Of a stretch of 20,223 bases of DNA, positions 10,101 to 19,191 are shown piece by piece. Under the pieces are notes generated by a model. It was given only the letters and a program-made list of their open reading frames with translations, did not search any database and had not been told where the DNA came from. The translations under genes and the position numbers were made by a program. The stretch comes from a virus. Location of the stretch: the IMG/VR virus record IMGVR_UViG_3300021368_000033, positions 1 through 20,223 of that record; one strand, written 5' to 3'. Each line of letters begins with the position of its first letter. Position 1 is the first letter of the stretch.

Positions 10101-10441
10101 AAAAGAAATTAGGAGATAAAATTGCTAGTGCTATAGATAGATCAGCTGTTATTGGTATACTTAGTGATGTAAACAGAATGATTGAAGTAGCTAGTGATAA
10201 TGATTTAGGAATAGCTCCAGCATTAGGTGCTGGTAAACCTTATGATTCTACATTTAAACAAAAGATGGGATTAGCAGGACCAACTGGTAGTTTGTTAGCA
10301 AACTTACATGAAATTATGATTGATACTGGAAGTGGTAATTATGACTATACTACTGCTAGAGCTATACGAAGGTCTTTACCTTTGCAAAATATATGGTATT
10401 TAGATGGTATCTTTGATAGATTAGAAAAGAGTATAAGATAA
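7181..10441 (+). CDS. Largest internal virion protein (T7 gp16 position), no visible transglycosylase domain
   Basis: A 1086-residue protein in the gp16 position (T7 gp16 is 1318 aa). The segment 'NPGAYFLGRLTGAILDPISM' near residues 113-132 is a helix type I associate with gp16-like ejection proteins. A hydrophobic helix 'GVLFLVGLGAMVDML' lies near residue 950 and could enter the inner membrane. The N-terminal soluble lytic transglycosylase domain of T7 gp16 is not recognisable: I see no catalytic Glu-Ser with a following GxxGLMQ-like motif. The middle (about 220-260) is a charged, probably disordered linker. It starts at TAATG without a clear Shine-Dalgarno, so coupling to the upstream gene is likely, and it ends at TAATG into the fibre gene. 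Confidence 0.72.
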   Translation: MSNVAYKGFIGNHVPTYSKNESSIDKFFARPKLEGLKKGFADENSIALSYSTFVERNRSFKDDPEYSPFYDEELAPYINNLDYFRSSRSREETKYLIQQLKDENQIIQQNPGAYFLGRLTGAILDPISMMAFSAKALRTTTGALNVKKITGVMTAEELYKQAIDSTRESELAYMVPFGTAITTGLLSGIQKLRTKEGGEAIAKYNRDMDRLDRKETEVASAKITDPDDIDDRILDPNKKMNPQSAGASAGPQAEGRSYNDDLWDEAFVKTYTGLEDTPITPMFRTIKSKLLTVRELATDMMDTKLIQNKNLKGIETTRSIESNIARKNLYVVNNIRVVKDQYKSYLNRFYKENELGNPNLINRVKNSYKRDDIMSEQEFRRQVSRALLKENFGAGEFADEIVQAARTIRENFFTLIGREADEQELFSLYSKVILAGLKKTRDRMKSSGEKTIIQKDKKYTFDEILKRIDDEQARLDTINATGPLRRNFLPRYWRKDLIRKDINQFKKDMLVALKNKGLQVSSKELDEIVDDILTSTPFNKLPKNPIGKDETFDLEFAFQASGISKHLRNRVWNFDDEYLLAKGYMEDDITLIMKQYFNSIMPDIEIAKVFGDVSMMGIRGPGYRPGLAQIRVEWDNFINKTAPKKTKPELRKRLIGERDQDLRDIEALRDLLRGTRGLPADPSAPLPSAIRTLKNVQNMIFLQGALSAVPDMGRLIMQNGLLNTFGQLLDTGFSGMYKQVMKLSKKEAEMAGEALDLLFAGRASVIGNIDDMVFGMNSVERATSKLNSIYFTFINMMNVWNTGAKTGSSFIGGTKILQLAEKYTKGTIGKREVAKLTANGINRDMAKRIYEQYKEFGLGVKAKETGGFKINRIARSDTWLDREAANAFSNALRKEIRTTIVTPDKADVPLWMNSQLGGLLSQFKKFGMGATQAILMRGLQERDQNFFTGVLFLVGLGAMVDMLRTRAFDRDYNKKKLGDKIASAIDRSAVIGILSDVNRMIEVASDNDLGIAPALGAGKPYDSTFKQKMGLAGPTGSLLANLHEIMIDTGSGNYDYTTARAIRRSLPLQNIWYLDGIFDRLEKSIR

Positions 10442-11829
10442 TGGCACTTCAAATAAGCGATACTACACCTAGAGTTCAATATACAGCTACGTCTGGACAA
10501 ACAACCTTTTCAGTTAATTTTGAGTTTTTTGATGTTGCAGATCTAAAAGTTTACAACGGTACGACACTCCTTACTTACAACAACTCACCATCATCTGCAT
10601 CACAGTACAGTGTTACTGGTGCAGGTGTTACTGGTGGGGGATCTATTACTTTAGGTAGTCCAGGAGCTACACTGAATGACAGTATTACGATTGTTAGAGA
10701 TTTAGCGATTGAAAGATTATCAGACTTTCCAGTATCTGGTAACTTTCCTATCCAAACCCTTAATACAGAATTAGATAAGATTGTTGCTATGTTGCAACAG
10801 TTAGAAGAACAGTTTGCTAGAACACTGCAATATCCAGTTACTACAACTACAGGATTTGATGTAGATCTACCTGAGTTAGTGGCTAATAGAGTATTATCTG
10901 TTAATGCAGACGCAACTGCTTTATTAGCTGAACAAGAACTAGGTACATTTAAAGGTGATTGGGCAACTTCTACATCCTACCAAGTTAGAGATCTAGTTAA
11001 AGATACATCAACAGGTAATATATTCTTTGTTAATGCTGCACATACATCATCTGGTAGTGAGCCATTAACGACTAATGCAAACAGTTCTAAATATGATTTA
11101 ATAGTAGATGCGGCATCAGCCACGACGTCTGCTACCAATGCTGCTAGTTCTGCAACAGCAGCTGCAACCAGTGCGACTGCTGCCGCTAATTCAGCTACAG
11201 CTGCCGCTACATCAGAAACCAATGCTGCTACTTCAGAAACAAATGCAGCAACAAGTGCTACTACAGCATCTACTCAGGCAACTAATGCTTCCAACTCAGC
11301 AACTGCGGCTGCCACAAGCGAAACTAATGCTGGAACAAGTGAAACCAATGCAGCGACATCTGCCACAGCTGCCGCTACATCTGCTACTAACGCAGCATCA
11401 TCTGCAACTACAGCTTCTGGTCATGCTACTACTGCTACTACACAAGCTAGTGCAGCAAGTACGTCAGCTACTAATGCAGCGACTTCTGAAACAAATGCTG
11501 CAACGAGTGCAACAACTGCAACAACCCAAGCAACAAATGCAGCAACATCTGCGACAGCTGCACAAACAGCTCAGACAGCTGCCGAAGCTGCACAAACTGC
11601 CGCTGAATTAGCTGCTGATAACTTTGATGATACCTATTTAGGAGCTAAAGCATCTGATCCAACAGTGGATAATGATGGAGATGCCTTGAACGCTGGAGAT
11701 TTATATTTTAATACGACTGACAATGTGCTGAAATACTATGATGGATCAGCATGGAATAACATTGAAGCCACTGATACAAGTGGTTTTGCAACAAATGGAT
11801 TTGCGATTGCTATGGCTATTGCATTATGA
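10441..11829 (+). CDS. Tail fibre protein, T7 gp17-like N-terminus, heptad-repeat shaft
   Basis: A 462-residue protein. Residues 1 to about 135 match the T7 gp17 N-terminal anchor that docks to the tail: 'SGQTTFSVNFEFFDVADLKV', a 'SITIVRDLAIERLSDFP' strand pair, 'NTELDKIVAMLQQLEEQFAR'. Residues 230-390 form a Ser/Ala/Thr heptad repeat (23 units) of the phage fibre repeat type (as in lambda Stf). The end carries a small 'DLYFNTTDNVLKYYDGSAWNN' motif common in marine phage fibres. There is no globular or beta-helical tip, so receptor binding is probably delegated to proteins encoded just downstream. Codons here look more GC-rich than in the preceding internal-protein genes, as expected from the Ala/Thr-rich shaft and possibly from exchange. 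The stop TGA is followed in frame by TAA. Confidence 0.88.
   Translation: MALQISDTTPRVQYTATSGQTTFSVNFEFFDVADLKVYNGTTLLTYNNSPSSASQYSVTGAGVTGGGSITLGSPGATLNDSITIVRDLAIERLSDFPVSGNFPIQTLNTELDKIVAMLQQLEEQFARTLQYPVTTTTGFDVDLPELVANRVLSVNADATALLAEQELGTFKGDWATSTSYQVRDLVKDTSTGNIFFVNAAHTSSGSEPLTTNANSSKYDLIVDAASATTSATNAASSATAAATSATAAANSATAAATSETNAATSETNAATSATTASTQATNASNSATAAATSETNAGTSETNAATSATAAATSATNAASSATTASGHATTATTQASAASTSATNAATSETNAATSATTATTQATNAATSATAAQTAQTAAEAAQTAAELAADNFDDTYLGAKASDPTVDNDGDALNAGDLYFNTTDNVLKYYDGSAWNNIEATDTSGFATNGFAIAMAIAL
11128..11610 (+). repeat. 23 tandem degenerate 21-bp units encoding a heptad shaft
   Basis: From TCT at 11128 the fibre gene can be read as exactly 23 consecutive seven-codon units with consensus S-(A/E)-T-(N/A/T)-A-A-(T/S), such as SATNAAS, SATAAAT, SETNAAT and QATNAAT, ending in AQTAAEL. 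Ala at positions 5 and usually 6, with Ser at position 1, gives a small-residue trimeric shaft. The units differ mostly at synonymous sites, so the array is old enough to have diverged but retains perfect register. It is a protein-coding repeat, not a CRISPR array. Confidence 0.9.
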
Positions 11830-11841
11830 TAAGGAGAAAGT

Positions 11842-12168
11842 ATGGCACAGAACTTTAGAAGATACACCTCTAATGATGTAGGAGCATCAGCAGCCACAAT
11901 ATTTACTGCTGATTCTTATGATACTGTTGTTGGTATATCACTAGCTAATGTTACTGCTTCTGCTGTTAATGTATCTGTATATATCAATGATGGAGCAAAT
12001 GACATCTACTTAGTGAAAGATGCACCTATTCCAGCTGGATCACAATTACAGGTATTAGATGGTGGTGCAAAGTATGTAGTACAATCTGGTGATGCCTTAA
12101 AAGTAGTATCTGACACAGCATCATCTGTAGATGTATGGGTATCAACTGTAGACGCAATTAGTACATAA
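11842..12168 (+). CDS. Small beta-rich virion-associated protein, function unknown
   Basis: A 108-residue protein, MAQNFRRYTSNDVGASAATI..., with alternating beta strands ('VVGISLANVTASAVNVSVYI', 'APIPAGSQLQVLDGG', 'GDALKVVSDTASSVDVWVS'). The pattern resembles a small beta-sandwich protein repeatedly found beside tail-fibre genes in marine phages, where it is annotated as hypothetical or structural. AAGGAG at 11831-11836 gives it its own strong ribosome site, unlike most neighbours, which suggests independent and perhaps high translation. It ends with TAATG into the next fibre-like gene. A role as a fibre-attached or capsid-surface accessory protein is inferred from context only. Confidence 0.65.
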   Translation: MAQNFRRYTSNDVGASAATIFTADSYDTVVGISLANVTASAVNVSVYINDGANDIYLVKDAPIPAGSQLQVLDGGAKYVVQSGDALKVVSDTASSVDVWVSTVDAIST

Positions 12169-13346
12169 TGGCATATATTGGAAGAACACCAACTGGATCA
12201 ATATTAACATCAGCTGATATTGCTGACGGATCTATTTCTACAGATAAGATACAAGATAATGCTGTAACACCAGCTAAGTATATAGAAGTTCCTTCATTTA
12301 GAAACCTCATCATCAATGGTGATATGTCTATTGCACAGAGGGGTACTTCTTTTTCACCAACAGGAGATGCTTATGTATTAGATAGATTTAAATTAGATTA
12401 TGCAGGAAGTCCTGCTGTTAGGTACACAATTACACAAGATACAAATGTTCCAACAGGACAAGGTTTTGCAAAATCAATGAAGTTTGATGTAACCACTGCT
12501 GAAGCATCACCTAGTGCAACAACAAGATTATGGACTAGATTAGAAGGACAAAATTTACAACAACTTAAATATGGAACATCAAATGCTGAAAGTTTAACAT
12601 TATCTTTTTGGGTGAAATCAAATTTAACAGGAACTTTTATATTTTGGTTATATCAAGAAGATGGCTCAAATAGGAGTATTTCAAAATCTTATACAATTAA
12701 TTCAGCAAATACTTGGGAAAAGAAAACGATTACTATTGATGGTGATACAAGTGGACAAATAGATAATGATAATGGTGCTGGATTTAGGGTAGTTTGGTAT
12801 TTAACTGCTGACCAAAGTGCCTATGGAACATCTTCTTTACAAACATCTTGGGGAAGTTATGACTCAACTGCTGTTGCAACTGGTCAAACAAATGTAGGAA
12901 GCAGTACATCTAACGAATGGTACATCACAGGAGTACAACTAGAAGTCGGTACATCTGCTAGTGACTTTGAGTTCTTACCTTATGATGTGAATTTACAAAG
13001 GTGTCAGAGGTATTTTGAAATTTTGTCTATTAAACAAGCATCTCAAGAAAATGAAATTATGAATATGATATCATTTAATGCTTCACAAATTTATGGCACT
13101 TATCAATTTAGAACTGAAAAAAGAAACGACCCTAGTTTGGTTGTAGATAATGGAACAAATTATTTTAGATATTATAGACAAGGAGGAAATGAAAATTTTA
13201 GTTCTATAGGATTAGATAATTCAAGTTTACATCAAGCAAGTTTATACGGAACAGGTTTAAGTCTTACTTCAGGTGAAGGTGGTTTTGTTAGATGGGTAAA
13301 CAATGCAAGTACAAATGATAAAGTTGCATTTGATTCGGAGTTATAG
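12168..13346 (+). CDS. Receptor-binding / tail tip protein with MAYIG anchor and carbohydrate-binding-like domain
   Basis: A 392-residue protein. Residues 1-40 form an anchor (MAYIGRTP, then 'ADGSISTDKIQDNAVTPAKY') common at the start of phage fibre proteins. From residue 44 comes 'FRNLIINGDMSIAQRGTS' and then 'YVLDRFKLDYAG', a typical entry to a phage domain resembling a carbohydrate-binding jelly roll. 'EWYITGVQLEVGTSASDFEF' at about residues 248-267 closes that domain, as in other tail proteins of this type. A C-terminal region of about 110 residues follows with no recognised motif and could be the variable tip. The gene starts in a TAATG overlap without a clear ribosome site. It is probably a host-recognition protein attached to the gp17-like fibre. 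Confidence 0.72.
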   Translation: MAYIGRTPTGSILTSADIADGSISTDKIQDNAVTPAKYIEVPSFRNLIINGDMSIAQRGTSFSPTGDAYVLDRFKLDYAGSPAVRYTITQDTNVPTGQGFAKSMKFDVTTAEASPSATTRLWTRLEGQNLQQLKYGTSNAESLTLSFWVKSNLTGTFIFWLYQEDGSNRSISKSYTINSANTWEKKTITIDGDTSGQIDNDNGAGFRVVWYLTADQSAYGTSSLQTSWGSYDSTAVATGQTNVGSSTSNEWYITGVQLEVGTSASDFEFLPYDVNLQRCQRYFEILSIKQASQENEIMNMISFNASQIYGTYQFRTEKRNDPSLVVDNGTNYFRYYRQGGNENFSSIGLDNSSLHQASLYGTGLSLTSGEGGFVRWVNNASTNDKVAFDSEL

Positions 13347-13529
13347 ATGATAGAATCAGTAGAAAAAATATACAGTGTTGTAGATAGTTCAAAATTTACA
13401 TATAAAATTATTTATGAAAATAATAAAAATATATTTGTTCCTCACAACGAAGCAAACCGACACTACCAAGAAATACTAGAATGGGTAGCTGAAGGAAACA
13501 CAATTACAGATAATGGGGGTAGTGAGTAA
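13347..13529 (+). CDS. Small fibre-associated protein of marine phages
   Basis: A 60-residue protein beginning immediately after the stop of the preceding gene (TAG ATG). Its 'VPHNEANRHYQEILEWVAEGNTI' end matches a small family frequent in cyanophages and pelagiphages, where the 'NRHYQxIxxWVAxGNTI' motif occurs in short proteins between fibre genes or at fibre ends. Function is not established; chaperone-like or fibre-assembly roles are guesses. There is little room for its own ribosome site, so translation is likely coupled to the upstream tip gene. It ends in TAATG into the next gene. Confidence 0.65.
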   Translation: MIESVEKIYSVVDSSKFTYKIIYENNKNIFVPHNEANRHYQEILEWVAEGNTITDNGGSE

Positions 13530-13984
13530 TGGCATACATTGGAAAACAACCTATAGTAGGAAACCACATTCTTCTTGATGATATATCAGGGAGTTTCAAT
13601 GGTACATTAACTAGCTTTACCTTACAATCTGGTGCAGTCAATGTAACACCACAGACAGAACAATCTTGTATTATTTCTATTTCAGGGGTGGTTCAATATC
13701 CCAATGACGCATACACTATTAGTGGTAGTACGATCACATTCACATCCGCACCTTTAGCATCTGATAGCTTTAGTGGTGTGGTCTTAGGAGATACTTTAAA
13801 TGTAGGAGTTCCGAGTGATGCAACAATTACTACATCAAAACTAGCTTCTTCGTTTTATACCATTAACAATCAAACCTTTACAGACATCACAGTAACATCA
13901 AATAAAAACGCTATAGTCGCAGGACCGATTACAGTATCAGGCACATTGACTATTGCATCAGGGAGTACATTCGTAATCGCATGA
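13529..13984 (+). CDS. Short tail fibre / tip protein with MAYIG anchor
   Basis: A 151-residue protein that begins MAYIGKQP, the same anchor as the 392-aa protein upstream. It continues with a compact beta domain of the phage fibre type ('SGVVQYPNDAYTISGSTITF', 'APLASDSFSGVVLGD'), the short linker 'SDATITTSKLAS', and the end 'AGPITVSGTLTIASGSTFVI', which is the usual terminal beta-helix-like segment of marine phage fibre proteins. In other phages these pieces are often parts of one long fibre; here they form a stand-alone gene. It overlaps the next gene by four bases (ATGA). Probably a trimeric fibre accessory or adaptor; the exact partner is unknown. Confidence 0.65.
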   Translation: MAYIGKQPIVGNHILLDDISGSFNGTLTSFTLQSGAVNVTPQTEQSCIISISGVVQYPNDAYTISGSTITFTSAPLASDSFSGVVLGDTLNVGVPSDATITTSKLASSFYTINNQTFTDITVTSNKNAIVAGPITVSGTLTIASGSTFVIA

Positions 13985-14535
13985 GTACATTAGAAGTAAA
14001 TACAATTAACCCTCAATCTGGAACAACTATTACGATTGGTGGTAGTGGAGATACAGTATCACTAGGTAGTGGTGCTACACAGAGTGGATTTGGTGGAGTA
14101 ATGACTCCTTACTTTCATGTTTATCTTGGAAGTGACCAAAGCGTTACTAGTGGAGCTACAAGTAAAGTACAATTTAATACAGAAGTTTATGACTCAAACA
14201 CAAATTATGATAACTCTACTAACTACAGATTTACACCTACAGTAGCTGGCAAATATTATTTTTACACAAGTGTCGTTTATTATGCTGATGCTGATAATTT
14301 TAATTTTAATAAAGTAAGCATTAGATTAAATGGTAGTGCTATAGCTGGTGGTGAAGCTGACTCAAGATTTGGTAGAGGTAGACAATATTCTGCATCTTGT
14401 TCATGTATTCAAGAAATGAATGGTTCTAGTGATTATGTAGAAGTTTATTCTTTTGTTCAATCTAATGGTGCATCTAGTCATTTTGAATCTGATAATAAAG
14501 CAACATTCTTTGGAGGCTATAAGTTAATAACATGA
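13981..14535 (+). CDS. C1q/TNF-like jelly-roll tip protein, copy 1
   Basis: A 184-residue protein. Residues 1-40 are an anchor (MSTLEVNTINP, then Gly/Ser/Thr-rich strands). From about residue 42 to the end the pattern is that of a C1q/TNF-like trimeric jelly roll: 'TPYFHVYLG', 'KVQFNTEVYD', 'YRFTPTVAGKYYFYTSVVY' (82-100), 'VSIRLNGSAI', 'SSDYVEVYSFV' and the closing 'FFGGYKLI'. Two Cys (140, 142) sit in the 'SASCSCIQEM' segment. Such heads commonly bind receptors or glycans. It is the first of four adjacent paralogues, closest to copy 2 (shared 'YDNSTNYRFTPTVAGKY'). It begins at ATGA overlapping the previous stop and ends the same way. Confidence 0.72.
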   Translation: MSTLEVNTINPQSGTTITIGGSGDTVSLGSGATQSGFGGVMTPYFHVYLGSDQSVTSGATSKVQFNTEVYDSNTNYDNSTNYRFTPTVAGKYYFYTSVVYYADADNFNFNKVSIRLNGSAIAGGEADSRFGRGRQYSASCSCIQEMNGSSDYVEVYSFVQSNGASSHFESDNKATFFGGYKLIT

Positions 14536-15083
14536 GCATATTAAAAGTTAATACAATACAGGATAAGGGTGGCAACGCTATTATCTCTAGTGATGGTGCT
14601 GGTACAGTTACAGTAAATAATGATGCGTTAAAAGCTACTCCAAGTTTCGAAGCCTATAATAATGCTAACCAAACAGTTTCTGATAATACCCATACTAAAC
14701 TTCAATTTAATACTGAGGTATATGACACAGATGGTTGCTATGACAACTCTACAAATTATCGTTTTACACCTACAGTAGCAGGTAAGTATTTTGTTTATGC
14801 TAGTGGACAAGCAGAAACTGAGGCTTCTCAATTACAATTTACTCAAATATCAATATATAAAAATGGTAGTCAATATGCTCAAAGAAATATCGATTTCAGA
14901 AGTAATAACGGATTGCAAGTAAGTGCAAACATATCAGCTATTGTAGACATGAATGGTAGTAGTGATTATGTAGAAATTTATGGAAAAATATTTAAAGGTG
15001 GTGGTTCAACAATTAGATTTAAAGCAGACTCTACTTCAGAAAAATCTATGCAGTTCGGAGCATACAGGATTATAGGAGCATAA
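14532..15083 (+). CDS. C1q/TNF-like jelly-roll tip protein, copy 2
   Basis: A 183-residue protein with the anchor MSILKVNTIQDKGGNAI followed by 'SSDGAGTVTV', then a C1q-like head: 'TPSFEAYNN', 'LQFNTEVYD', 'YRFTPTVAGKYFVYAS' (77-91), 'ISIYKNGSQYA', 'SSDYVEIYGKI' and the end 'FGAYRIIGA'. The 'QFNTEVYD' and 'YDNSTNYRFTPTVAGKY' blocks are identical in copy 1, whereas the second half of the head diverges. That contrast is expected if a conserved core supports variable binding loops. GGAGG lies inside the last codons of copy 1 upstream, and its own last codons contain AGGAG for copy 3. It is proposed as one alternative or co-assembled receptor-binding head. Confidence 0.73.
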   Translation: MSILKVNTIQDKGGNAIISSDGAGTVTVNNDALKATPSFEAYNNANQTVSDNTHTKLQFNTEVYDTDGCYDNSTNYRFTPTVAGKYFVYASGQAETEASQLQFTQISIYKNGSQYAQRNIDFRSNNGLQVSANISAIVDMNGSSDYVEIYGKIFKGGGSTIRFKADSTSEKSMQFGAYRIIGA

Positions 15084-15084
15084 C

Positions 15085-15639
15085 ATGAGTTCAATTATAA
15101 AAGTAAATACATTTCAAGACGCAAACGGAAATGCTCTATTCTCATCTGATGGTAGTGGTAATGTAACAATGAGTGCAAATGGAGCTAAGAATACTCCAAT
15201 GTTTCATACTTATTTAAACGGACATCAAACAGTTTCTCATAATGTTCATACAAAATTTCAAAGTAATGTAGTTGTTAAAGATACAGACTCAGCTTATGAC
15301 AATACAACAAATTATCGTTGGACTTGTCCAAGCGGTAAAGGAGGTACTTATTTATTTTGGTGGAACTTATTTATTCATTATAACGGAAACACAATAACTA
15401 ATGCTTTAGCTTATTTGAAAAAGAATGGTTCAACAATTACAGGAACGGACAATGGTAATGGTGTTGATGTAAACGATGGAAGTTTATTAATGGTTCCTAT
15501 TTCTGGAACATTTGTAGTAGATATTTCTGATGGTGATTACATTGAATTATATGGATATGGAACTACTGATAATGGAGGTTCTTTTTATTTTATTGATAAA
15601 TCCTATGGTTGGGGTGGAATGAGGTTAATAGGAGCATAA
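15085..15639 (+). CDS. C1q/TNF-like jelly-roll tip protein, copy 3
   Basis: A 184-residue protein with the anchor MSSIIKVNTFQDANGNALF and 'SSDGSGNVTM', nearly the same as copy 2. The head has 'TPMFHTYLNG' (close to copy 1), 'YDNTTNYRWTCPSGKGGTYLF' in place of the FTPTVAGKY block, 'ISDGDYIELYGYG' and the end 'GWGGMRLIGA'. The anchor thus groups with copy 2 while the core strands lean toward copy 4, suggesting mosaic ancestry. AGGAG at 15074-15078, within the last codons of copy 2, is six bases from the ATG. The same arrangement recurs before copy 4. Likely a trimeric fibre-tip protein. Confidence 0.72.
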   Translation: MSSIIKVNTFQDANGNALFSSDGSGNVTMSANGAKNTPMFHTYLNGHQTVSHNVHTKFQSNVVVKDTDSAYDNTTNYRWTCPSGKGGTYLFWWNLFIHYNGNTITNALAYLKKNGSTITGTDNGNGVDVNDGSLLMVPISGTFVVDISDGDYIELYGYGTTDNGGSFYFIDKSYGWGGMRLIGA

Positions 15640-15640
15640 C

Positions 15641-16129
15641 ATGGCAATAACTCGTTTAAATAATAATTCAATTACTTCGATAACAGCTTTGCCTAGTGCT
15701 GTTGCTGTTGCTAATACTCCTTCTTTTTTAGTAAGAAATGGGGGAAGTGGTCAAAGTATAGCTAATGGAACTACAGTAAAAATTACAGCTTGGGATACAG
15801 CAGATTTTGATACTGACTCTGGGTGGGATGCAACAAATTCAAAATTTGTAATCCCTACTGGCAAAGGTGGTAAATATTTATTTTCAGCTTCTTTAAAATC
15901 TGGTTCAACCAGCGATTTAAGGTTACATACAAGAATTTATTTAAATGGCAGTTGGGTTACAGGAAACTCTGCCAATATCACCTATTATGCATCTACAAAT
16001 ACTATAGTTATTTTAGATTGTTCTGCTGGAGATTATATTGAAGTATATGGTAAGTCTGACCAATCAAGTGGTACAACAGTAGGTACGGATTCTAGAGAAG
16101 AATATTTTTTAGGATATAAACTAATTTAA
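15641..16129 (+). CDS. C1q/TNF-like jelly-roll tip protein, copy 4 with different anchor
   Basis: A 162-residue protein. The anchor is different (MAITRLNNNSITSITALPSA), a short form common in marine phage fibres, but the head keeps the same plan: 'TPSFLVRNGG', 'FVIPTGKGGKYLFSASL' (about 69-85), 'HTRIYLNGSWV', 'SAGDYIEVYGKSD' and the end 'YFLGYKLI'. The GKGGxYLF block is shared with copy 3. Its start is preceded by AGGAG (15630-15634) located in the last codons of copy 3. It is the last of the array; the next gene has an independent strong ribosome site. Probably a receptor-binding head that docks through its own anchor type. Confidence 0.7.
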   Translation: MAITRLNNNSITSITALPSAVAVANTPSFLVRNGGSGQSIANGTTVKITAWDTADFDTDSGWDATNSKFVIPTGKGGKYLFSASLKSGSTSDLRLHTRIYLNGSWVTGNSANITYYASTNTIVILDCSAGDYIEVYGKSDQSSGTTVGTDSREEYFLGYKLI

Positions 16130-16143
16130 AAAGGAGAAAACAA

Positions 16144-16470
16144 ATGGCACAACTAAGTACAAAAATAAAAGAGTATCTAAAGGCTAACTCAGTAAACGAG
16201 GTGGACTTTACAACTGATGTTCTTTTACAAGATGATGGTCAAGGTGCATACATTAAAGAGTGGAATATCTCTGGTGTAGCGAAACCATCTGATAGCGACT
16301 TAGCTAGTTATGATGCAGCAGCAACAACTGCTGAATCTAATGCCACTGTAGATGCAACTCGTAGAGCTGCATATGGTAATATAGGCGATCAATTAGATGA
16401 AATCTATCACGACATTGACGCTTGGAGAACCAGAATACAGGGTGTGAAAACAGCTAATCCTAAAAGCTAA
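16144..16470 (+). CDS. Conserved small fibre-region protein, possible assembly factor
   Basis: A 108-residue protein, MAQLSTKIKEYLKANSVNEV..., with an N-terminal region that includes 'VLLQDDGQGAYIKEWNI' and a helical C-terminus 'GNIGDQLDEIYHDIDAWR' then 'VKTANPK'. The 'IGDQLDxIYHDID...VKxxNPK' motif recurs in short proteins or protein ends at the close of fibre modules in marine phages. Some are annotated as tail-fibre assembly or XkdW-like proteins, but the role is unproven. It has its own strong ribosome site (AAGGAG at 16131-16136, seven bases before the ATG) and ends in TAATG into the lysis cassette. Alternative: a structural component rather than a chaperone. Confidence 0.62.
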   Translation: MAQLSTKIKEYLKANSVNEVDFTTDVLLQDDGQGAYIKEWNISGVAKPSDSDLASYDAAATTAESNATVDATRRAAYGNIGDQLDEIYHDIDAWRTRIQGVKTANPKS

Positions 16471-17649: not shown

Positions 17650-18058
17650 TTTAAAAGAGAGGATTAAAGAGCATGAAGGATATTGTGAAACTGTTTACAA
17701 AGATACACTGGGATTTGAAACTGGTGGGTATGGACATAAGATCATACCTGGTGAAGATATACCGACAGACAGAGATGGATGGGATGCTCTATTCGAGAGT
17801 GATTTTCAAAATGCAGTTAATGGCGCTGAGAGGATTCTTGATGGCTATGATATTAATAACACAGCTAGGGAAGTTATTATTGAGATGGTGTTCCAAATGG
17901 GTGAAGGTGGTGTATCTAAATTTAAGAACGCTTTATCTAACCTTAAAGAACAAAGGTATTCGGAATGTGCAGCAGAAATGTTGAACAGCAGGTGGGCAAA
18001 TCAAACACCCAACAGGGCAAAATCTCTAGCATCAATAATGGAGAACTCAAATGCTTAA
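17639..18058 (+). CDS. Endolysin: T4-type lysozyme (GH24)
   Basis: A 139-residue muramidase cutting the MurNAc-GlcNAc bond of peptidoglycan. The catalytic triad pattern of T4 lysozyme is clear: Glu13 in 'KEHEG', Asp22 in 'YKDTLG' and Thr28 in 'ETGGYGH' (T4 Glu11, Asp20, Thr26). The C-terminus 'SRWANQTPNRAKSLASIM' matches the T4 'NQTPNRAK' helix. The length is slightly under T4 lysozyme (164 aa). There is no signal peptide, so it should wait in the cytoplasm for a holin, consistent with the holin gene that overlaps its end by eight bases. This is the only recognisable muralytic enzyme in the window. Confidence 0.95.
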   Translation: MYTDLKERIKEHEGYCETVYKDTLGFETGGYGHKIIPGEDIPTDRDGWDALFESDFQNAVNGAERILDGYDINNTAREVIIEMVFQMGEGGVSKFKNALSNLKEQRYSECAAEMLNSRWANQTPNRAKSLASIMENSNA

Positions 18059-18434
18059 CTTACTCGGACCTGTCGCTGGAGCAGTCTTTAAAACTATTGA
18101 TAAAGTTGTCGATAATAAGGGAGAGGCTGACAAACTTAAAGCAAAAGTACAAGAAAAGATTATCGCAGGAGAACTAGCAGAGCTAGAAGGTGCTGCGAAA
18201 ACAATACAAATAGAAGCACAGGGAGGATTCTTACAAAGAAACTGGCGACCAATTATGATGTTGGTCTTTGCTGGTTTAATGGTAGCTCATTGGTTTGGGT
18301 TTACTGCACCAAACATTCCAGAGTCTGTACAGAACTCCCTACTTAACATTATCCTAGTGGGGATAGGAGGTTATACAGTTGGAAGATCAGCAGAGAAAGT
18401 CGCAGACAAATTTAATACCAATAAAAAGGGGTAG
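18051..18434 (+). CDS. Holin, 3TM/GTA-holin type
   Basis: A 127-residue protein with an amphipathic N-terminal helix, a charged helical segment (residues 20-58), 'FLQRNWRPIMMLVFAGLMV' entering a membrane segment (66-84) and a second one (about 95-112, 'NSLLNIILVGIGGYTVGRS'). The 'xxNWRPxxM' entry and the 'GGYxxGRSxEK' exit are characteristic of holins of the GTA_holin_3TM family. It would form lesions that let the lysozyme reach the wall. GGAG in the lysozyme's last codons supplies its ribosome site, and the two reading frames overlap by eight bases. Its own 3' end contains the start and ribosome site of the metallophosphoesterase gene. Confidence 0.85.
   Translation: MLNLLGPVAGAVFKTIDKVVDNKGEADKLKAKVQEKIIAGELAELEGAAKTIQIEAQGGFLQRNWRPIMMLVFAGLMVAHWFGFTAPNIPESVQNSLLNIILVGIGGYTVGRSAEKVADKFNTNKKG
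18365..18370 (+). promoter_or_regulatory. Ribosome binding site AGGAGG deciding a TTG start
   Basis: A perfect AGGAGG lies within the holin coding sequence, eight bases before the TTG at 18379. No ATG or GTG exists in the downstream frame before the conserved phosphoesterase core, so this site fixes the unusual start of the metallophosphoesterase. Confidence 0.75.
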
Positions 18435-19191
18435 GGGTAGACCTAGGAAAGGTGAAAGTACCCCTTCTACGGCTCTTAAAACAGGAAAAAACGATAGAAT
18501 TTTGGTCATCTCTGACCTTCATGTGCCTTATCATCATCCTGATAGTTATAGGTTCTTGGAGTCTTTGGCTGCTAAGTATAATCCTACGAATGTCATTCAT
18601 ATCGGAGACGAAATGGATTGGCACTCAATTAATGTTTCTCACGTAATCAATCCAGATTTACCATCACCTGCTGATGAACTAGAGATCGGTAGATATCACA
18701 TGAAGAAGCTAGAAGCTATGTTCCCTGTCATGACTATACTAGAATCTAATCATGGTTCTATGGTCCTAAGACGTGCTATGGCAAAGGGTATGTCTAAGTT
18801 CTTTTTGAAAGACTACAATGAGATACTAGATGTAGGTCATGGTTGGCAGTGGAAAGAATCACACTGGGAAGAAACTGCTATGGGTAGAGTTTACTTTGCA
18901 CATCAAGTATCTAAGAACATTGTGAAGGCAGTACAGATGATGTCTGCTTCGGTAGTTCAAGGACACTATCATACTCAGTCAAACATAGAGTATGTTGGTA
19001 ATGACTTCCATTTAAACTGGGGTATGTCTGTTGGTTGTTTAGTTGATAAGAAGTCTATGGCTATGGCTTACATGAAAGTAAACATGGCAAAGCCAATCTT
19101 ATCTTGTGGTGTCATCACTAATGGTGTACCATCCATAGTTCCAATGTTATTGAGGAAGGATGGTTCATGGGATGGCAAAGTATACGTCTAA
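18379..19191 (+). CDS. Calcineurin-like metallophosphoesterase with N-terminal AT-hook-like motif, TTG start
   Basis: A 270-residue protein. Metal-binding motifs are in order: Asp46-x-His48 ('ISDLHVP'), Gly76-Asp77 ('IGDEMDWH'), Asn124-His125 ('ESNHGS'), His175 and His196-x-His198 ('GHYHTQ'). It should be a two-metal phosphatase or nuclease; the substrate is unknown (related phage enzymes are annotated as metallophosphatase). Residues 17-25, RGRGRPRKG, form an AT-hook-like DNA-binding motif, so the N-terminal tail may tether the enzyme to AT-rich DNA. The start is TTG 18379, supported by AGGAGG eight bases upstream; it overlaps the holin gene by 56 bases in another frame. The motif's codons mostly follow the holin stop, so they are not simply a shadow of holin coding. 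Confidence 0.88.
   Translation: MEDQQRKSQTNLIPIKRGRGRPRKGESTPSTALKTGKNDRILVISDLHVPYHHPDSYRFLESLAAKYNPTNVIHIGDEMDWHSINVSHVINPDLPSPADELEIGRYHMKKLEAMFPVMTILESNHGSMVLRRAMAKGMSKFFLKDYNEILDVGHGWQWKESHWEETAMGRVYFAHQVSKNIVKAVQMMSASVVQGHYHTQSNIEYVGNDFHLNWGMSVGCLVDKKSMAMAYMKVNMAKPILSCGVITNGVPSIVPMLLRKDGSWDGKVYV

Follow-up and report, generated by a model that had tools for sequence, protein, structure and literature searches.

Why should a T7-type podovirus carry four small genes for C1q-like proteins in a row, and where do such genes come from? The question is raised by an ocean virus record of 20,223 bases (IMGVR_UViG_3300021368_000033), a fragment taken over its whole length and called the window below, in which four adjacent open reading frames of 162-184 codons occupy positions 13981-16129. 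An earlier note had described them as a tandem array of C1q/TNF-like receptor-binding candidates diversified by duplication with recombination. Each of the proteins consists of a short N-terminal tag, constant for its place in the array, and a C-terminal head of a kind that has moved between tags. We consider it reasonably probable that the array belongs to a split tail fibre with several heads, each of them an adhesin that can be exchanged for another. The array and the other parts of the fibre module described here lie on the plus strand.

Four genes with a common C1q-like head

The four genes, here called slots 1 to 4, each encode a C1q-head adhesin candidate and were found exactly where the earlier note had placed them: slot 1 at 13981-14535 (184 codons), slot 2 at 14532-15083 (183 codons, starting in an ATGA overlap with slot 1), slot 3 at 15085-15639 (184 codons) and slot 4 at 15641-16129 (162 codons). 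The array proteins are only 29-45% identical to copy 1, and DNA identity among the four copies is 52-63%. Taken singly they gave weak Pfam matches: C1q was hit with E 0.005-0.008 by copies 1 and 2, copy 4 matched BclA_C (E 2e-4), and copy 3 had no Pfam C1q match. In the family as a whole 21 of the 112 members matched Pfam C1q at E<=1e-3, the best with 9.7e-10. In contrast to these single-protein searches, one C1q-like profile built from the family matched all four proteins (E 1e-41 to 2e-52), and among solved structures the family profile matched C1q-like protein 2 (E 2.6e-7).

The same assignment was obtained from structure prediction. With a deep alignment of the 112 family members AlphaFold modelled the slot-2 protein as a beta sandwich with a mean pLDDT of 93.3 (monomer); slot 2 alone was modelled in this way and the other three proteins were assigned by homology. 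A previous model built from four sequences (pLDDT 50) was not used and was replaced by this one. The best PDB matches found by Foldseek were C1QL1-3 (for C1QL3, E 7e-9 and TM 0.81 by target length). Weaker ones included the central-spike knob of phage phi812, the CBD domain of the short tail fibre of cyanophage A-1(L), BclA, the Burkholderia lectin BC2L-C and a Bdellovibrio MAT tip (Bd2734), and C1q proteins were also among the BFVD matches. Fold and sequence profile both place the heads in the C1q/TNF jelly-roll superfamily. The earlier note was right, then, that a C1q-like head follows a short N-terminus in all four proteins, a claim for which it had itself suggested structure prediction and Foldseek as a check, and the motifs it had listed (AGKY, GKGG, DYVEVY and a closing GxxLI) are real, being core positions across the whole family.

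Slot-specific tags and the boundary between tag and head

Each slot has its own N-terminal tag of 20-40 aa. In the related loci L096, L098 and L103 the array comprises four (or three) genes whose N-termini match those of the window slot by slot and in order, and the heads differ. The transition is abrupt: the first 60-120 nt of the genes mostly show 90-100% DNA identity to the window, after which identity falls to approximately 55-60%. For the slot-1 tag, MSTLEVNTINPQSGTTITIGGSGDTVSLGSGATQSGFGG (13981-14100), DNA identity with these three loci is 93-100%, followed by the abrupt drop in the head. The slot-2 tag, MSILKVNTIQDKGGNAIISSDGAGT (14532-14621), shows 70-100% identity per 30 nt with the same loci over about 90 nt, and the slot-3 tag, MSSIIKVNTFQDANGNALFSSDGSG (15085-15174), shows 66-100% per 30 nt with them and with L293 and L294. 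In L293 the slot-3 tag of the window is joined to a head that is 70% identical. The slot-4 tag, MAITRLNNNSITSITALPSAVAV, lies at 15641-15709.

The order of the tags is conserved as well. No reversal was seen in 64 unique pairs of neighbouring genes that differ in tag type, and the graph of all tag orders was acyclic.

Origin of the heads

Arrays of three or four C1q genes occur on many marine contigs, so a four-gene head array, which the earlier note had called notable on a podovirus, is not unique to this phage. That note had also taken a block of 17 residues which is identical in copies 1 and 2, YDNSTNYRFTPTVAGKY, as a sign of recombination. The block is the consensus of the whole family, and in DNA the two copies agree at 42 of its 51 positions, all nine differences being silent; it is therefore not a recombination trace, and gene conversion between copies 1 and 2 was ruled out.

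The plainest account of the array would be that a single C1q gene was duplicated in tandem and that its copies diverged, now and then undergoing gene conversion with one another. One observation fits it: the tags of different slots are alike (MSxLKVNTI...), so the slots themselves probably derive from an old duplication. The heads tell against it. Among the 135 heads that could be assigned to slots, only two had their nearest relative in the same array, which ruled out heads as in-array duplicates; the array members are not mutual closest relatives, as the copies of a tandem duplicate array would be; and heads of other families, described below, fill the same slots. For the heads tandem duplication is largely refuted, and as an explanation of the array as a whole we hold it to be very improbable. 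What survives of the original proposal is the diversification of heads by recombination, which is better supported than the letters of the window alone could show, though the mechanism is a different one.

Evidence for such exchange came from a comparison of tags and heads in 183 distinct single-head C1q proteins. Where tags were at least 90% identical (179 pairs), the heads averaged 41% identity, against 36-38% in other pairs. Where heads were at least 70% identical (18 pairs), the tags were less than 50% identical in 13. A single head was found on three different tags (L238:5001, L234:675 and L226:538), and the slot-1 head of L098 is 76% identical to the slot-3 head of L218. In nine pairs of similar heads on unlike tags the DNA identity rose from approximately 25-70% in the tag to approximately 80-100% in the head. 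Slot and head are almost independent: mapped on the head tree, the slot label changed 69 times, compared with 66.7 ± 3.4 changes with shuffled labels. Taken together, the sequence comparisons support the view that each slot-specific N-terminus stays in place while its heads come by exchange from a larger pool.

It might be asked whether the heads could have diversified where they stand, by rapid point mutation or with the help of a reverse transcriptase, without any exchange. They are certainly hypervariable, the positional entropy peaking at model residues 91-135 and 151-174. However, near-identical heads stand on unrelated tags and non-homologous heads on the same tag, and the pattern of variation is one of whole-head exchange, not of point changes. 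Moreover, no reverse transcriptase was recognised among those genes of the window, itself a fragment, that were scanned with Pfam and PHROG. Mutation in place was rejected on account of the heads common to different tags and seems to us scarcely credible.

Tags shared with other head families

The exchange is not confined to C1q heads. The slot-4 tag, MAITRLNNNSITSITALPSAV, bears C1q heads in the window, L096, L098, L218 and L294, and non-C1q heads in L204, L228, L254, L293 and L296. Each of the eight tag types examined bears C1q heads and heads of one or more further kinds; the counts of head types are biased toward C1q, many loci having been fetched with C1q queries. The commonest alternative family corresponds to the C-terminus of the fibre protein orf22 in PDB entry 9efk (E 6.5e-22). 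A profile comparison of this family with the C1q heads gave a significant match (E 3.8e-9), in an alignment that begins in the shared tag and spans some 97 columns; the two heads may have a remote common origin, and the alternative one may itself be a distant jelly roll. A third head family (A4) aligned with C1q over some ten tag residues only (E 0.03), the profile comparison giving no C1q match beyond the tag.

The distribution of the families bears on another explanation, namely that slots 1-3 assemble jointly into one hetero-oligomer, for example a C1q-like heterotrimer resembling that of the A, B and C chains of complement C1q, so that each fibre would carry a single composite head. Runs in which a non-C1q slot comes after three C1q genes are common (7 of 43), and another 5 of the 43 consist of three C1q genes; the three tags are related, and three chains would suit the stoichiometry of a trimer. 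Yet mixed arrays of C1q and non-C1q heads are common, which disfavours an obligate C1q heterotrimer, and heads pass freely between slots, something an obligate hetero-interface would restrict. We therefore judge joint assembly to be unlikely.

Ribosome-binding sites in the head ends

The genes of the array are closely interlocked. Slot 2 closes with ..IIGA stop, and its final codons contain the AGGAG ribosome-binding site of slot 3 (15074-15078); in the same way the AGGAG site of slot 4 (15630-15634) falls in the final codons of slot 3, which closes with ..LIGA stop. Across the family, 109 of 119 adjacent pairs have the Shine-Dalgarno-like site of the second gene within the terminal codons of the first. 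The closing LIGA motif is thus partly explained, because its codons also serve the following gene as a ribosome-binding site. The arrangement suggests that the array genes are translationally coupled, and the conserved 3' end of each head could be a site where recombination resolves.

The hub protein and the proposed base of the fibre

A gene of the MAYIG family at 13529-13984 (151 aa) immediately precedes slot 1 and is a candidate for the base of the array; we call its product the hub. Of 19 testable arrays, 18 have the hub gene immediately before the first array gene; in the remaining one, L102, a non-C1q head on a slot-1 tag is encoded further upstream. The hub is 82-97% identical in L096, L098 and L103. 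Its residues 5-107 match residues 570-673 of the fibre protein gp28 of cyanophage P-SCSP1u (PDB 8i4m; E 8.7e-11). There the segment is enclosed in one fibre of 1,079 aa, whereas in the window the hub has a gene of its own and the heads that follow are encoded separately.

Upstream lies the gene of a T7-gp17-like short tail fibre of 462 aa (10441-11829), with a fibre N-terminus, a repeat-rich shaft, a conserved C-terminus and matches to PHROG tail fibres. Its C-terminal 70 aa are 94% identical in L011, and no variable tip domain was identified in it. Residues 3-296 match the N-terminus of the solved phage fibre 9efk orf22 (E 7.6e-12), the same protein whose C-terminus resembles the commonest alternative head. 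In orf22 base and head form one polypeptide; here they are split and multiplied. From the matches of hub, alternative head and fibre to solved fibres it follows that pieces which elsewhere belong to one fibre polypeptide are separate genes here. Overlapping the repeat of the fibre gene, which is rich in A, T and S, a 167-codon open frame is present in another reading frame (11108-11611). It is probably a by-product of the repeat, because relatives show similar shadow frames.

The fibre is followed by o108 (11842-12168), a conserved protein of 108 aa of the virion-structural type that is a candidate fibre cap or adaptor. It is 83-100% identical across the 80 loci kept and precedes hub and array in related loci; its pelagiphage homologues carry the annotation 'virion structural protein'. 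With fibre, o108 and hub upstream of it, the array is located in the tail fibre module.

Some loci elaborate on this plan. At L240:4556-10274, L100:1-5849, L104:2959-9305 and L268:566-5537 two units of hub and slots follow one another, both with an ordered set of tags of their own. Small open reading frames of approximately 92-111 aa with motifs like 'HIEDYLxxLHTGQWFGW' stand between slot genes at L300:1567-1860, L303:4815-5093, L302:5699-6001, L268:3836-4171 and L104:9305-9601, and possibly encode head-specific assembly factors.

A proposed split, multi-headed tail fibre

How might these components work together? In the arrangement we propose, the short T7-type fibre shaft with its conserved C-terminus would form a constant base together with o108 and the hub. 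The four small proteins would dock on this base, each by its own short tag, all four may be carried on one virion, and each would present a C-terminal head with which it probably attaches to the host surface. In this phage all four heads are predicted C1q-like jelly rolls, which are probably homotrimers. Because the tags would set the position of each protein, any head, C1q or not, might be replaced without disturbing assembly. Heads from other phages would enter by recombination at two places, close to the junction of tag and head and, on the far side, in the shared head-end and ribosome-binding-site sequence. The outcome would be combinatorial sets of binding specificities on SAR11-type hosts. 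A receptor-binding role of the heads is likely because of the fibre neighbourhood, the fibre-homologous hub, the hypervariability of the heads and published precedent.

Whether the plan is a general one, a position-addressed rack of adhesins in marine phages in which tags are addresses on the hub, several heads are mounted per virion and at least two or three head families are permuted across phage groups, is in our estimation an even chance.

Several observations weigh against this interpretation or temper it. The slot label changes only four times on the tag tree, and this number is low by construction, slots being defined by tags. The head tree is weakly resolved because the heads are very divergent. 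A small correlation between tag and head persists (Mantel r 0.13), and the nearest head shares the slot in 51 of 135 cases, slightly above chance (31% expected). The order of the tags may simply be inherited, in which case the 64 pairs are not independent trials; since common descent contributes to it, the order should be called conserved, not independently repeated. Finally, the close relatives L084-L087, which share approximately 80% or greater identity with the window in most neighbouring structural genes, lack the array and have a longer fibre in its place.

That related phages manage without an array would also be expected if the small proteins were hypervariable decoration proteins of capsid or tail, which stick to surface or extracellular glycans generally and do not determine specificity. 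C1q/TNF folds are used as decoration and lectin domains too. However, the array adjoins the fibre genes, and both the hub and the alternative head family have counterparts in solved fibres, the latter as a C-terminal part; a mere decoration role is in our opinion improbable.

At the site of the array L084-L087 possess a long fibre of 842-940 aa and one gene of 279-313 aa whose product starts with MATIDLGKI, a whole-module alternative to short fibre plus array. In another phage group (L112-L121) a single C1q-like domain is found within large proteins of about 855 aa, at residues ~243-361.

Gene neighbourhood and probable host

Between o108 and the hub lie two further genes. The product of the first, slot A (12168-13346), is an upstream adhesin-like protein with the tag MAYIGRTPTGSILTSADIADGSIST and a different C-terminal region, matching PHROG 4492, tail fibre (E 1.8e-55); in L096 its N-terminus is retained and the rest replaced. 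Searches of the PDB with o108 and with the slot-A protein gave no match. The second is a small open reading frame of 60 aa (13347-13529) with homologues at the same place in L103, L300 and L255. The unit ends with a small XkdW-family protein (16144-16470; Pfam XkdW, E 5.3e-10), which is also found 3' of the array in related loci and possibly is a fibre-assembly factor.

The window contains the late half of a T7-type podovirus genome, with genes for the capsid protein, both tail tubular proteins (A and B), the internal virion proteins, the fibre, a lysozyme and a holin. Membership of the T7-like podoviruses is indicated by tail tubular proteins A and B (Pfam Tube, PHROG tail proteins, and a match to a tail nozzle in the PDB), by an internal virion protein with an endolysin domain and by the gp17-type N-terminus of the fibre. 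A metallophosphoesterase gene (phrog_221; 18379-19191) adjoins a holin of the gene-transfer-agent type (18051-18434). The lysozyme gene of L085 (15514-15939) is 62% identical to that of the window and its downstream neighbours are 93-97% identical, which suggests that it was exchanged separately.

Cultured pelagiphages are the nearest named DNA relatives of the window, yet its tail tubular protein B is less than 60% identical to that of any of them. For this reason a SAR11 host is inferred indirectly. Two cultured pelagiphages have comparable units. HTVC115P (host HTCC7211) possesses a hub and three C1q slots. Lederberg EXVC029P (host HTCC1062) has a hub and four slots with related tags, followed by an XkdW-like gene (a diverged homologue); no C1q head was recognisable in these slots, which bear a different head family, and a separate C1q gene, annotated as such, lies upstream.

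Relation to known systems and significance

C1q-domain proteins were proposed as putative receptor-binding proteins of pelagiphages in 2014 (Mizuno, Ghai and Rodriguez-Valera, PMC3909814), and that paper already describes a C1q head near the tail fibre and an N-terminus more conserved than the head. In the passages considered it treats single C1q genes, with no mention of ordered slots, of tags specific to them, of heads that move from slot to slot or of alternative head families. In cryoconite phages C1q variants with 54-69% nucleotide identity are interchangeable in an otherwise stable genome (PMC7468147), as the heads are here, but those are whole-gene variants of one putative receptor-binding gene and not a multi-slot array. 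The MAT fibres of Bdellovibrio bacteriovorus (PMC10769870) likewise join C-terminal tips that are swapped, TNF/C1q-like ones among them, to an N-terminus that is conserved. They are bacterial surface fibres of approximately 1,000 aa, in contrast to small co-linear phage genes with position-specific tags; the array shares with them the plan of a constant N-terminus and exchangeable tips, and the plan only, so it was not assigned to the MAT fibres.

Branched multi-spike receptor-binding systems such as those of CBA120 and phiK64-1 also mount several receptor-binding proteins on N-terminal modules, and these are large enzymatic tailspikes. In the literature searched, most subscription papers lying outside the search, no description of ordered slots exchanging heads with one another came to light. 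The C1q head itself had already been proposed in pelagiphages.

SAR11 bacteria are among the most abundant organisms of the sea, and their recognition by phages is poorly known. The heads of the cultured phages Lederberg (HTCC1062) and HTVC115P (HTCC7211) provide a defined set for receptor-binding tests. For annotation, the division into tag and head indicates which part of these 'hypothetical' genes would mark position and which part binding. If the proposal is true, exchangeable heads on the ordered tags of a split fibre would account for the way in which phages with very small genomes maintain many binding specificities.

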